The notes under the pieces: model-generated | The model's database searches: none | The model's input: only the letters and a program-made list of their open reading frames with translations | Told to the model about the DNA's origin: nothing | Program-made: the position numbers and the translations under genes | Assembly: GCA_025054575.1 (NCBI GenBank) | Contig: JANWZN010000014.1 | Location: forward strand, 1-34,954 | From: Geminicoccaceae bacterium | GTDB taxonomy: Bacteria; Pseudomonadota; Alphaproteobacteria; Geminicoccales; Geminicoccaceae | DNA length: 34,954 nucleotides | Direction: 5' to 3' | Part shown: positions 1 to 14,961 of the stretch, piece by piece | How the letters are laid out: each line of letters starts with the position of its first letter | Position numbering within the stretch: the stretch's first letter is position 1

Positions 1-826
1 GCTCGAGGGCCATTGCCAGCCAGCGGAGCTGACTGTCGAGCCGGCCGGACGACCAGTCGTCCGAACTGCCCACCATCAAGCGCTCGACGAAGTCGTCGCT
101 CACGAGGATCGTGTAGAGGGCGAGGGCAGCTGTTGCGCCGAGCGAGGCCAGTCCCAGGCGGCGGAAAGCGCGGTGTCGTTCCGGATCGCTGGCGACGTCG
201 AGCAACAGGTAACAGCCGAAGGTGACCAGGGCCGTTCGCGTGCCGGTCAACAGCACCATCAAAAGCGCGAGCAGAGCCGCGCCGCCGAGCAAAATGCGAG
301 CGGGCGCGTCGGCTCGCTCGCGCATTCGGCCGAGCGTGGCGAGGAGGAAGATCAGGCACAGGCCGGTGTGCGAGACGAGCGAGCCGGAAAAGTCGATCCG
401 AACGAGATCGGCGCGGCCCCGCACGAAGACCTCGGGCATCGCGACGAGGCCGACGAAAGCCGTGGCGAGGACGTAGCCGGCGAGCAAACGCCAAACGAGC
501 AGCGCGACCTCGACCGTTGCCAAAGCGGCCGTCAGGAGCGGGGCGGCGAGGAAGACGAGCAACAGCAGCGCGATTCTGTAGTCGCTCGGATCGACCTCGC
601 CGGCGAGCCCGTCGGTCACCACGATGGCCGTGAGCATGAGGGCCAAGAGGATCGGCACCGTCGGCTCGCGCGCCGGGAACCGCGGACTGCGCACCGCCGC
701 CCCCGTCAAGAGTGCCGCCAGCGCCACGAGAAAGGCCGCGGTTCGCAGCCCCTCGAGGCCGAGCAGACGCGCCGCCTCCGAGGACAGGAAAGCAAACGCC
801 AGCACGGCGCCCAACAGCGAGCTCAC
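1..826 (-). CDS. O-antigen ligase / polysaccharide polymerase-like membrane protein (partial, C-terminus off window)
   Basis: The leftward frame is open from about 826 to the window edge, about 275 codons, so the C-terminus is missing. The translation is strongly hydrophobic, with at least six likely membrane segments. It contains a GTRTALVTF stretch followed by a loop with SSGRLDSQLRW, which resembles the Wzy_C/WaaL O-antigen ligase core and its periplasmic Arg-rich loop. Such proteins join or polymerise lipid-linked glycans at the periplasmic face of the inner membrane. I chose GTG at 826 because GGAGG lies 4 bases upstream; an in-frame GTG at 856 is an alternative. It diverges from a glycosyltransferase unit at 869, which supports a polysaccharide role. 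The exact substrate cannot be read. Confidence 0.72.
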   Translation of the reverse strand, partial: MSSLLGAVLAFAFLSSEAARLLGLEGLRTAAFLVALAALLTGAAVRSPRFPAREPTVPILLALMLTAIVVTDGLAGEVDPSDYRIALLLLVFLAAPLLTAALATVEVALLVWRLLAGYVLATAFVGLVAMPEVFVRGRADLVRIDFSGSLVSHTGLCLIFLLATLGRMRERADAPARILLGGAALLALLMVLLTGTRTALVTFGCYLLLDVASDPERHRAFRRLGLASLGATAALALYTILVSDDFVERLMVGSSDDWSSGRLDSQLRWLAMALE

Positions 827-868
827 CCGGCCTCCGCCTTGCCGACCCGTTGCCACGAACTTCAACTT

Positions 869-1567
869 ATGATTGAAAATCGCTCGCGTCGAGACGGTTC
901 GACGAGGCCGGCCTTGTCGGTGCCGAAGGTCAAGGAATTCCCGATCGCGCCGCGACGGCCCTGGCTCGCGGCGATGCTGCAGAGCTGCCCCGTGATCCTC
1001 GCGATCAACTGGGTCTGCCAGGGCGTGCGCGGCATGGACCGCGGCGAGCTCGCCTTCCGGCTCGGTCTCGAGCTCGTGCTGGCGCTCGCTCTCGCGCCCG
1101 TGTTGGGCGCCCTCCCGGCGCTCCTCGCCGCCCACAGCTTCAACTTCACATTCAACGGCCAACTCTGGGTCTGCGCGCGCTATTGTCGGCCGTGGCGCCG
1201 CGATCCGGCCGCGCTCGACCGTTTTCTCGAGCGGGTCGCAGCCGAGCTGCGCAGCCTCCCGTGGCTCGCGGAAGCAGTCTGCATCGGATCGCGCGGCGCG
1301 CGCCCCGCAGCTGCCGGCCCGCGCTCGGACATCGACCTGCGCCTGATCGCGCCGCGAGGCTTCCTCGGATGGCTGCGGGTCAATCTCCTGCTGCTCGAGC
1401 TGCGTACGCGGGCGCTTCTCGGCCTGATCCCGCTCGACCTCTACGCCTACGACGACCCGATCTCGCTCGACCGTTTCCGGCAGGACGAGCCGCTGCTCGT
1501 CATCCTCGATCGCCACGGGCGGATCGCGCAGCGCTACGCGCATCGCAGGCTGGTGCCGTTCCCGTGA
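869..1567 (+). CDS. Membrane-anchored nucleotidyltransferase-fold protein
   Basis: This 232-residue protein has two hydrophobic stretches (about residues 31-50 and 60-88), then a conserved-looking AHSFNFTFNGQ segment. The C-terminal domain looks like a polymerase-beta-type nucleotidyltransferase: Gly140-Ser141, then Asp154 and Asp156 in SDIDLR, and a possible third acidic residue at Asp190 in PLDLYAY. This GS...DxD...D pattern is that of MNT/DNA polymerase beta superfamily enzymes, which transfer a nucleotide to a small molecule, protein or RNA. The start is the ATG at 869. Its stop overlaps the GTG of the next gene (GTGA), so it is probably translationally coupled to the PssD/PssE-like pair. 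Its acceptor is unknown; a role in glycan or glycolipid modification is inferred from context. Confidence 0.68.
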   Translation: MIENRSRRDGSTRPALSVPKVKEFPIAPRRPWLAAMLQSCPVILAINWVCQGVRGMDRGELAFRLGLELVLALALAPVLGALPALLAAHSFNFTFNGQLWVCARYCRPWRRDPAALDRFLERVAAELRSLPWLAEAVCIGSRGARPAAAGPRSDIDLRLIAPRGFLGWLRVNLLLLELRTRALLGLIPLDLYAYDDPISLDRFRQDEPLLVILDRHGRIAQRYAHRRLVPFP

Positions 1568-2034
1568 ACCGGATCCGACACGTCGAGCGACGACGCACCT
1601 GCCTCGCCTACTCGCCGGGTGGGCATCTCAGCGAACTCGAGCGGGCGTTGGAAGGGATCGACTTCCCCGATTGCTTCCACGTCACCTTCGGCGGCGGCCG
1701 GCCCACCCGCCTGCCGGCCCGGCGTGTCTACAGCCTGTGCCATCCGCGACGCTCGATAGCGCGGACCCTCCTCAACGCCTTCCAAGCCCTGCTCCTGCTC
1801 GCGCTCGAGCGACCGCGGCTCGTGATCTCGACCGGTGCCGACGTCGCCGTCCCGTGTGTCGTCCTCTCCAAGCTGGTCGGTGCGCGCGTGGTGTACATCG
1901 AGACGGCGGCTGCGCTCGAGGGGTCGTTGTCGGGTCGCATCTGCTACCGCGTCGCCGACTTGTTCGTGGCGCAGTGGCCCGAGCAGCGCGCGGTCTATCC
2001 GCGGGCGGTGATCGCGAGCGGTCCTTTGTTGTGA
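1564..2034 (+). CDS. PssD/Alg14-like glycosyltransferase membrane subunit
   Basis: The protein has 156 residues and starts with GTG inside the preceding stop codon (GTGA). The N-terminal YSPGGHLSEL (Gly-Gly-His at 19-21) is the glycine-rich loop of Alg14/PssD proteins, and a hydrophobic helix is followed by ISTGADVAVPCVVLSKLVGA. Alg14-type subunits anchor a separate catalytic Alg13-type subunit to the cytoplasmic face of the membrane and help form the sugar-nucleotide and acceptor sites. Length fits a stand-alone subunit (about 150-200 residues). The downstream gene encodes the Alg13/PssE partner, again with a GTGA overlap. The likely role is adding a sugar (often glucuronic acid or GlcNAc in known pairs) to a lipid-linked exopolysaccharide intermediate; the actual sugar is not determinable. 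Confidence 0.85.
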   Translation: MNRIRHVERRRTCLAYSPGGHLSELERALEGIDFPDCFHVTFGGGRPTRLPARRVYSLCHPRRSIARTLLNAFQALLLLALERPRLVISTGADVAVPCVVLSKLVGARVVYIETAAALEGSLSGRICYRVADLFVAQWPEQRAVYPRAVIASGPLL

Positions 2035-2570
2035 CGAACCGTTCGATCCTCGTCGCGGTCGGGACGTTCAAGGACGGCTTCGACGCGCTCGTGGCCGCAG
2101 CGGACGAGGCGGCCGAGCGGCTCGGCCTCGAGGGGTTCGCCCAGATCGGCGGCTCGCGCGTCGTCCCTCGACGCCTGCTCTGGGCACGCTGGCTGCCTCC
2201 CGATGTGCTCGTCGAGCGCATCCGGGCGGCGCGGGTGGTGGTGGTTCACGGCGGCGTCGGCCTCTTGGGCGAGGCGATGCGTGCGGGCCGTCCGATCGTC
2301 GCGGTGCCGCGCCGCGGGCCCACCACCGCCGTCAACCCGGCCGGCGATCAGCTTCGCTTTCTCCGGCGTTTGGCCGAGCGCTACCCGATCGTCTTGTGCG
2401 AAGACCCGCAGCGAATCGCGACTGCGATCGAGACCGCTCTCGCGGGACCTTCGAGCATCCTCTACCCGCTCGGCAGCGACGTTCCCGAGATCGTCGCAGC
2501 TTATCTGCGCGGTCGTTCGCTGATGGCCGAGTTCGCTCGGTCGGCACCGACGCGGCCGCCGAGCCGGTAG
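2031..2570 (+). CDS. PssE/Alg13-like glycosyltransferase catalytic subunit
   Basis: This 179-residue protein resembles the C-terminal half of GT28 glycosyltransferases. VAVGTF opens the first strand, VVVHGGVGLLGEAMRAGRP (His73) matches the UDP-sugar-binding loop, and VPRRGP...NPAGDQLRFLRRL matches the GDxQ-type donor contact. Alg13/PssE proteins are catalytic only when paired with Alg14/PssD, which is encoded immediately upstream and overlaps by 4 bases. The GTG at 2031 was chosen for that overlap. The last 70 bases run antisense to the 3' end of flhB, an unusually long convergent overlap. The N-terminal EPS cluster probably ends here. Confidence 0.85.
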   Translation: MTNRSILVAVGTFKDGFDALVAAADEAAERLGLEGFAQIGGSRVVPRRLLWARWLPPDVLVERIRAARVVVVHGGVGLLGEAMRAGRPIVAVPRRGPTTAVNPAGDQLRFLRRLAERYPIVLCEDPQRIATAIETALAGPSSILYPLGSDVPEIVAAYLRGRSLMAEFARSAPTRPPSR

Positions 2571-11708: not shown

Positions 11709-13355
<1,647 letters not shown>

Positions 13356-13533
13356 GCTGTCCTCCCCGCCCTCGGTCGACCGCCGCGCGATCCCGGCACG
13401 GCTGCGATCGGTCGATGTCGCAAGCCGGGGTGCGGGGTCAAGCAGCGCCTCGGGGTCCCTTGCGGCGACGGCCGCTATCCGACTATCAGGCGATCGACTG
13501 GACGGACGATTCAACTTTTGGCGAAGAGGGGTC

Positions 13534-14961
13534 GTGGAGCACGCAACCGAAAAGGGGGCGCTCGTCCCGGTGATTCTCGCCGGCGGCTCGGGGACCAGGC
13601 TTTGGCCCCTCAGCCGCGCCGCCTTTCCCAAACATCTGGTCGAGCTCGTGGGCGAGGAATCGCTCCTCCAGGCCACCGCCCGCCGGGCGCTCGCGGTGGC
13701 GCCGGCCGATCGCGTGGTCACGGTCGCGGCCGCCGGCCAGGCCGTGCTCGTGCGCCGCCAGCTCGCCGCGGTCGATCGCGCGCTTCTCGCCAACCTGCTC
13801 CTGGAGCCGGAGCCCCGCAACACCGCGGCCGCCGTCGGGCTAGCCGCGAGCTGGGCGGCACGCAGCTTCGGCGGTGCTTCGATCCTCTGGGTGTGCCCCT
13901 CCGACCATCTCGTGCAACGGCCGGACCGACTGCAGGAGACCCTCGCGCTCGCCCTGCCCGTGGCCGCCGATCGCCGCATCGTCACCTTCGGCATCGCGCC
14001 GAGCCGCGCCGAGACCGGGTTCGGCTGGATCGCCCGTGGCCGCGAGCTCGGCCCCGCGGGCGTGTTCGAGGTTCGCCGCTTCGTCGAAAAGCCGCCGCGC
14101 GCGGAAGCGGAGGCGATGCTGGCTTCGGGCGAGTACGTCTGGAACAGCGGCATGTTCGTGATGCGCGCGGATGTCCTGCTCGAGGAGCTCGCTCGTTTCG
14201 AACCCGAGCTCGCCCGCGGCCTCGAGGCCGTCCGGGCGAGCCTCGAGGAGGGCCCGGATCGGCTGGCGGATGCGGATCTCTTCGGCCGACTGCCGGCCTT
14301 GCCGATCGACAAGGCGGTCATGGAGCGCTCGGCGCGGATGGCCGTGATCCCTTGCGATCCCGGCTGGTCGGACATCGGCTCGTGGCAGGCGCTCTGGGAG
14401 CTCACGAGCAAGGACGAGGCGGGCAACGTCGCCACGGGCGACGTGGCCTTGGCGCGCGCCCGCGACAATCTCGTGCGAGCCGAGCATCGGCTCGTCGCCC
14501 TGGCTGGTGTCAAAGACCTCGCGGTGGTCGAGACGGCGGATGCGGTGCTCGTCGCCGATCGCACCGACGGCGAGGCGATCAAGGCGCTCGTCGGCGCGCT
14601 CGCCGGGCGCGGGCGGCCGGAGGCCGTGCGGCATGCGCGCGAGATCCGGCCCTGGGGTCGCTTCACCACGCTGGTAGAGCGGCCGGACTATCGGATCCGC
14701 GAGCTCGAGCTCGATCCCCGCGCGCAACTCGGCCCGGAACGTCATCTTGCCTGCGACGAGCACTGGCTCGTGCTGAGCGGCCGGGCCGACGTCCGGCTCG
14801 ACGAGGAGGAGCACCGGCTCGGGCCGGGCGAGAGCCTCGACGTCCCGCGCGGGACGTGCCATCGCCTCGCCAACGGTGGCGACGGACCGCTGCGCGTGGT
14901 CGAGATTCAGCTGGGTGGAACCGAGGAGGCAGGCGCGAGCGAGCGGAGCGGTGCCACATGA
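13534..14961 (+). CDS. manC: Mannose-1-phosphate guanylyltransferase / mannose-6-phosphate isomerase (type II PMI)
   Basis: This bifunctional cytosolic enzyme makes GDP-mannose for polysaccharides. The translation of 475 residues has VPVILAGGSGTRLWPLSR (pyrophosphorylase signature), FPKHLVEL, FGIAPSRAETGFGWI, FVEKPPRAEAEAMLASGEYVWNSGMFV and PGWSDIGSWQALWEL. A C-terminal cupin (about 368-465) is the isomerase part. Its metal-site segment, usually QxHxxRxEHW, reads ERHLACDEHW here, so the His, Glu and second His are kept but Gln and Arg are replaced by Glu and Cys. The GTG at 13534 is preceded by AGAGGGG. It may serve the polysaccharide genes at the left end. Confidence 0.93.
   Translation: MEHATEKGALVPVILAGGSGTRLWPLSRAAFPKHLVELVGEESLLQATARRALAVAPADRVVTVAAAGQAVLVRRQLAAVDRALLANLLLEPEPRNTAAAVGLAASWAARSFGGASILWVCPSDHLVQRPDRLQETLALALPVAADRRIVTFGIAPSRAETGFGWIARGRELGPAGVFEVRRFVEKPPRAEAEAMLASGEYVWNSGMFVMRADVLLEELARFEPELARGLEAVRASLEEGPDRLADADLFGRLPALPIDKAVMERSARMAVIPCDPGWSDIGSWQALWELTSKDEAGNVATGDVALARARDNLVRAEHRLVALAGVKDLAVVETADAVLVADRTDGEAIKALVGALAGRGRPEAVRHAREIRPWGRFTTLVERPDYRIRELELDPRAQLGPERHLACDEHWLVLSGRADVRLDEEEHRLGPGESLDVPRGTCHRLANGGDGPLRVVEIQLGGTEEAGASERSGAT

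Follow-up and report, generated by a model that had tools for sequence, protein, structure and literature searches.

Why should an enzyme-like third membrane protein never be missing beside a glycosyltransferase that is described as having two subunits? In bacteria, split transferases of the Alg14/Alg13 type, described as two-subunit enzymes, are related to the second enzyme in the eukaryotic N-glycosylation pathway. In the Geminicoccaceae (Alphaproteobacteria), which are soil and hot-spring bacteria, the genes for such a pair are preceded by a gene for a nucleotidyltransferase-like membrane protein (NT). The locus considered here lies at the beginning of a contig stretch of 34,954 nucleotides (the window), and its layout, its proteins and its distribution each bear on what NT may do there.

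Gene coupling and the divergent promoter region

Three genes are found on the forward strand of the window. The first (869–1567) encodes NT and is supported by its open reading frame, an alignment of 20 sequences, an AF2 model and fold matches to nucleotidyltransferases. The second (1564–2034) encodes the PssD/Alg14-like half of a split GT-B glycosyltransferase, and the third (2031–2570) encodes the PssE/Alg13-like half, which carries an HGGVG motif and can be aligned with PssE of other genera. The first-pass annotation of this DNA had placed three genes here on this strand, joined by two 4-base GTGA overlaps, and the overlaps are indeed present at 1564–1567 (NT/PssD) and 2031–2034 (PssD/PssE). 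Among 20 loci, NT and PssD share 4 bases at their junction in 18 and a single base in the other two, and PssD and PssE share 4 bases in 18. Because the first overlap occurs in all 20 loci and the second in 18 of them, the coupling of the three genes is beyond chance.

All three genes are genuine, but a unit limited to them is too small, as a divergent wzy gene belongs to it as well. This gene (2–853, reverse strand; start codon uncertain) encodes the N-terminal part of a Wzy/O-antigen-ligase-type membrane protein, begins about 16 bases from the ATG at 869 and runs off the end of the contig. The window fragment alone scores 24.8 bits with Wzy_C, under the cut-off of 31.7, whereas complete orthologues score over it (48.7 bits in L022 and 37.7 bits in L021). 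The missing C-terminal part was found at the end of another contig of the same genome (C111:80266-80655 of 80656), and wzy is thus split by a contig boundary, with its N-terminal part ending contig C55 and its C-terminal part ending C111. In one genome of the same genus (G003:C259:26514-27692), wzy contains an in-frame TAG, either as a pseudogene or through a sequencing error.

The divergent order, with wzy on one side and NT–PssD–PssE on the other, is retained in 22 of 22 loci. The surroundings of this block differ by genus (flagellar genes, ABC transporters or sugar transferases), so that the four genes are kept together while their context changes. In the window, the block is followed on its 3′ side by unrelated flagellar genes for FlhB, FliR and FliQ (named from their sequences), and a mannose-1-phosphate guanylyltransferase-like protein, called by eye from the motif VPVILAGGSGTRLWPLSR, is encoded at 13354–14961 (forward strand) and is possibly the product of another polysaccharide gene. 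In two genera, Bac_transf-type initiating sugar transferases are encoded a few kilobases from the NT block (L025:14024-15496 and L035:12754-14289), which fits a lipid-linked exopolysaccharide pathway. Other neighbors include a large protein with a papain-like domain, close to the block in the window's genus (L022:4153-7011 and L163:3663-6572), and, in several genera, a beta-helix protein resembling pectate lyase, whose gene follows that of a small conserved protein (L025:6363-8681, L026, L027 and L029).

The region between wzy and NT contains a palindrome rich in A+T, of the form TCAAY-N5-RTTGA (862–876; TCAACTTATGATTGA). Ten of 20 loci match it exactly, and 18 of 20 do so when up to one mismatch is allowed, against 0.02 and 0.25, respectively, in dinucleotide shuffles. 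It occurs as a single copy in the window (0.00 expected). A −35-like hexamer, TTGCCA (850–855, forward strand; a consensus match only), is followed after 17 nt by the palindrome half TTGAAA (873–878), and TTGNNN stands at exactly this distance in over half the loci. A sigma-70 scan of the promoter, at the scan's own stringency, found nothing. The palindrome is probably a shared operator for one regulator acting in both directions. The strict pattern occurs eight times in the same genome, including sites at G000:C222:27431, C222:46296, C383:4070 and C88:12294. One site is upstream of a gene for an RTX-repeat protein, and two, one close to glmM and one where a GT2 gene starts, recur at corresponding positions in another species of the genus (G005). 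A coherent polysaccharide regulon was not established from the eight genomic sites.

The transferase pair and the nucleotidyltransferase protein

The second and third genes had been taken for a PssD/PssE-type pair, an assignment with which the domain searches agree. PssD passes the Alg14 model PF08660 (47.5 bits vs. a cut-off of 27). It also matches NF041549 (E = 1.9e-27, 96.5 bits; equivalog cut-off 110), and PssE matches NF041548 (E = 1.1e-14, 54.6 bits; equivalog cut-off 120), both under their cut-offs, scores that indicate homology to the NCBIfam equivalogs rather than establishing the same activity. For this reason, no sugar is assigned. In Rhizobium leguminosarum, PssDE is a glucuronosyl-beta-1,4-glucosyltransferase that adds glucuronic acid to lipid-linked glucose (PMC7589315), and in eukaryotes Alg14 is the membrane anchor of Alg13 (PMC4973528). 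The pair described here shares with both systems the split GT-B architecture, with N-half and C-half in adjacent genes, and an exopolysaccharide context (PMC7589315, PMC4973528). It differs in that an overlapping NT gene always precedes PssD, whereas the sampled alphaproteobacterial PssDE pairs from outside the Geminicoccaceae have none. In the alignment, PssD is without an N-terminal membrane helix, and a search of the same alignment for an acceptor tyrosine conserved family-wide found none.

NT had been read as a protein of 232 residues starting at ATG869, a start that is probably wrong. Because this ATG lies inside the conserved palindrome and the homologues align only from about residue 19–20, TTG914 or GTG920 is the more likely start, which would give a protein of about 215–217 residues. 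In the window's genus (L002–L006), the NT start codon lies at a constant 9 bases past the TTGAxx half-site, a spacing that would suit a leaderless mRNA; the window species has GCG in place of this codon.

The protein consists of a membrane hairpin (about residues 58–95) and a pol-beta-type nucleotidyltransferase domain (about 113–227), in keeping with the membrane segment and polymerase-beta-type domain described in the first-pass annotation. The AF2 model (pLDDT 86, pTM 0.80) places the hairpin helices at 58–79 and 81–95 and the nucleotidyltransferase core at 113–227. The hairpin is hydrophobic, its loop is without charge and its flanks are basic, features from which both ends of the hairpin, and with them the enzyme domain, are predicted to be cytoplasmic, where NTPs are. 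The intact GS...DxD motif and possible third aspartate that had been noticed in the single protein are invariant throughout the 20 homologues (44–74% identity to the window protein): G140, S141, D154 and D156 (GSX12DXD) and D190, which lies in strand 189–194 of the model as the third metal-binding carboxylate on the following strand. Of 33 invariant positions in total, 17 fall in the N-terminal membrane part, and these include K20, N47, Q51-G52, R54-M56, E60, R64, H89, N96-Q98 and R104-Y105. Thus, as judged from the alignment, the membrane half and the enzyme half of NT are both under strong constraint.

Sequence searches place this protein poorly. The window protein matches no Pfam and no NCBIfam model; PF01909 (NTP_transf_2) has no match to it or in its own genome, and weakly matches three of the 20 NT homologues (best E 0.007). 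A PDB search with the single protein gave nothing useful, and the NT profile gave weak nucleotidyltransferase matches. With the model as query, the top 15 Foldseek matches are all chains of MNT proteins or other nucleotidyltransferases, at a best E of just 8e-3. In VIA-align, LinB comes first for residues 113–227 (Z 8.6, rmsd 2.7 Å, 111 residues), ANT(4″) reaches a Z of about 6.7, others 6.3–6.7 and MNT proteins 4.1–5.7. By motif and modeled fold, the NT core is a member of the pol-beta nucleotidyltransferase superfamily.

The two kinds of relatives differ from NT in different ways. LinB and ANT(4″), whose nucleotidyltransferase core aligns best with that of NT, both modify hydroxyls of sugar-containing small molecules, but they carry an extra C-terminal domain, whereas NT ends right after the core; they also have no membrane part, and their identity to NT is 13–14%. 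MntA and other MNT antitoxins share with NT the minimal pol-beta fold, the GSXnDXD motif and the third aspartate (D71 in MntA) (PMC7641770). MNT proteins, however, are soluble single domains of less than 150 residues with GSX10DXD, whereas NT has GSX12DXD, about 215–232 residues, an N-terminal membrane part of about 100 residues and, unlike HEPN–MNT (the type VII toxin–antitoxin), no HEPN partner. For a GtrA-like N-terminus (GtrA/DPMS, PF04138), profile comparison was weak, with a probability of 15–38% over 27–30 columns; the faint likeness to GtrA/DPMS_TM is to the second hairpin helix of NT and its N-F-x-x-N end.

Distribution among genomes

NT is encoded in 22 of 31 Geminicoccaceae genomes from nine genera, in one copy each; named relatives in the family include Geminicoccus harenae and G. 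flavidas, both of which have the locus, Geminicoccaceae bacterium KatS3mg117 and others. Full-length PssD is found in the identical 22 genomes and in none of the other nine, and a Wzy search returned the same 22 and no others, so that all three are jointly missing from nine genomes. The chance of one such set identity, counted over the choices of 22 from 31 with shared ancestry ignored, is about 1 in 20 million. The identity of the sets is no sampling accident, and the kinship of the genomes means that the count overstates the number of separate events. Sequence identities of NT and PssD also correlate (Pearson 0.77, 17 loci). The first-pass annotation had proposed looking for a repeated NTase–PssD–PssE order across genera, and this order is found in all 22 NT-bearing genomes, in nine genera of one family. 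NT was never found away from PssD/PssE, and neither a match to an unrelated known family nor a HEPN partner was seen.

Profile searches of two overlapping samples, 385 class genomes and 398 phylum genomes with some Geminicoccaceae among them, returned no full-length NT from outside the family. The short matches from outside that were inspected are soluble MNT-type proteins, and one match in G069 (31% identity, residues 57–144 only, E 5.5e-5) was treated as chance. No match was found in plasmids or viral contigs. The better PssD homologues outside the Geminicoccaceae adjoin genes for Wzy, a flippase, a deacetylase, UDP-glucose dehydrogenase or other genes, and no NT. As far as sampled, the NT–PssDE module is limited to one bacterial family. 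A literature search, with subscription papers mostly outside its scope, returned no paper combining PssD, PssE and a nucleotidyltransferase, and none that links minimal nucleotidyltransferases with glycosyltransferases and polysaccharide. The view that a nucleotidyltransferase is not a standard part of Alg13/14 systems accords with both the sampled alphaproteobacterial pairs and the papers covered.

Possible roles of the nucleotidyltransferase

The favored reading, given a probability of roughly 0.55, is that NT, PssD and PssE together make up a glycosyltransferase unit docked at the membrane, part of a Wzy-type exopolysaccharide pathway, and that NT is catalytic in it. The three proteins would be produced close together from one coupled mRNA. 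The NT hairpin would insert into the inner membrane from the cytoplasmic side and set the nucleotidyltransferase domain beside the PssD–PssE pair, itself without an N-terminal membrane helix. NT would then act as a Mg2+-dependent enzyme, transferring NMP from NTP to a nearby hydroxyl, and the three-part membrane unit would feed a Wzy-type polymerase or ligase. The physical complex, the catalysis and the target are what we infer. No genome of the family keeps PssDE without NT, which speaks for an integral component over a dispensable regulator, and the invariance of the active site speaks for catalysis over a scaffold. Held more tentatively, at somewhat less than even odds, is the proposal that NT is an obligate third subunit of the Alg14/Alg13-type transferase and puts NMP on a lipid-linked sugar, a polyprenyl carrier or the transferase. 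To our knowledge, nucleotidylation of this sort has not been described in any known Wzy-type polysaccharide pathway.

Among the candidate targets, the lipid-linked sugar or the polyprenyl carrier on which PssDE works is ranked first as a provisional choice, favored by LinB as the best fold match, by a membrane part rich in conserved polar residues and by the absence from PssD of any conserved acceptor tyrosine. Second, as a more doubtful candidate, comes one of the proteins of the complex (PssD, PssE or Wzy), favored by the MNT proteins, which likewise are without a substrate domain and modify a partner protein (PMC7641770). Several points count against the favored reading as a whole: NT lacks a C-terminal substrate domain like that of LinB and ANT, PssD presents no family-wide tyrosine as an obvious nucleotidylation site, and PssDE pairs elsewhere function without NT (PMC7589315).

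NT may instead be a post-translational switch that nucleotidylates PssD, PssE or Wzy and thereby turns polymer synthesis on or off. Precedents for modification of a protein exist, in that GlnE adenylylates glutamine synthetase and MntA AMPylates HepT. A switch would suit a protein whose smallest fold neighbors, the MNT proteins, are modifiers of a partner protein (PMC7641770), that has no separate small-molecule-binding domain and that is tightly gene-coupled to its would-be target. It is nonetheless less likely than the favored reading, as a mere regulator would be expected to have been lost from some PssDE genomes, whereas NT is kept in 22 of 22, and the absence of a conserved acceptor tyrosine in PssD weighs against it too. 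An improbable explanation is that NT serves mainly as a membrane anchor or assembly factor for PssDE, with the nucleotidyltransferase fold as a scaffold whose chemistry is dispensable. The missing PssD helix, the strongly conserved hairpin part and the anchoring of Alg13 by Alg14 in eukaryotes (PMC4973528) would agree with such a role, but a scaffold has no need of GS, DxD and a third aspartate that stay invariant in 20 of 20 sequences down to 44% identity, and other PssDE pairs manage without such an anchor.

Co-occurrence is no proof of physical contact, and a cassette whose surroundings vary from genus to genus is evidently kept as a block. The four genes could therefore share no more than a common promoter and a conserved adjacency, with NT acting on a different surface-polymer step elsewhere in the envelope. 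Little probability is given to this arrangement, as a stop–start overlap in 20 of 20 loci exceeds the needs of a loose cassette. Least credible of all is an MNT antitoxin that came to lie beside polysaccharide genes by chance. Despite the resemblance in fold and motif, this identity was rejected: NT neighbors PssD and Wzy in 22 of 22 loci with no HEPN partner between them, it carries an N-terminal membrane hairpin, and the window protein lacks any PF01909 match.

Beyond the favored catalytic unit, NT is very probably a working part of surface-polysaccharide building in these bacteria. Its association with PssDE, closer than the first-pass annotation could tell, is obligate in the 31 genomes examined, translationally coupled and accompanied by a shared conserved promoter element, and the module is best described as a PssDE/Alg14–Alg13-type polysaccharide system with an unclassified membrane nucleotidyltransferase as its constant third member. 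As no Pfam or NCBIfam model recognizes the window protein, the NT family is invisible in current annotation. If NT does act on the glycan, the carrier or the transferase, a nucleotidylation step would be added to polysaccharide assembly, either as a new modification or as a new control point.
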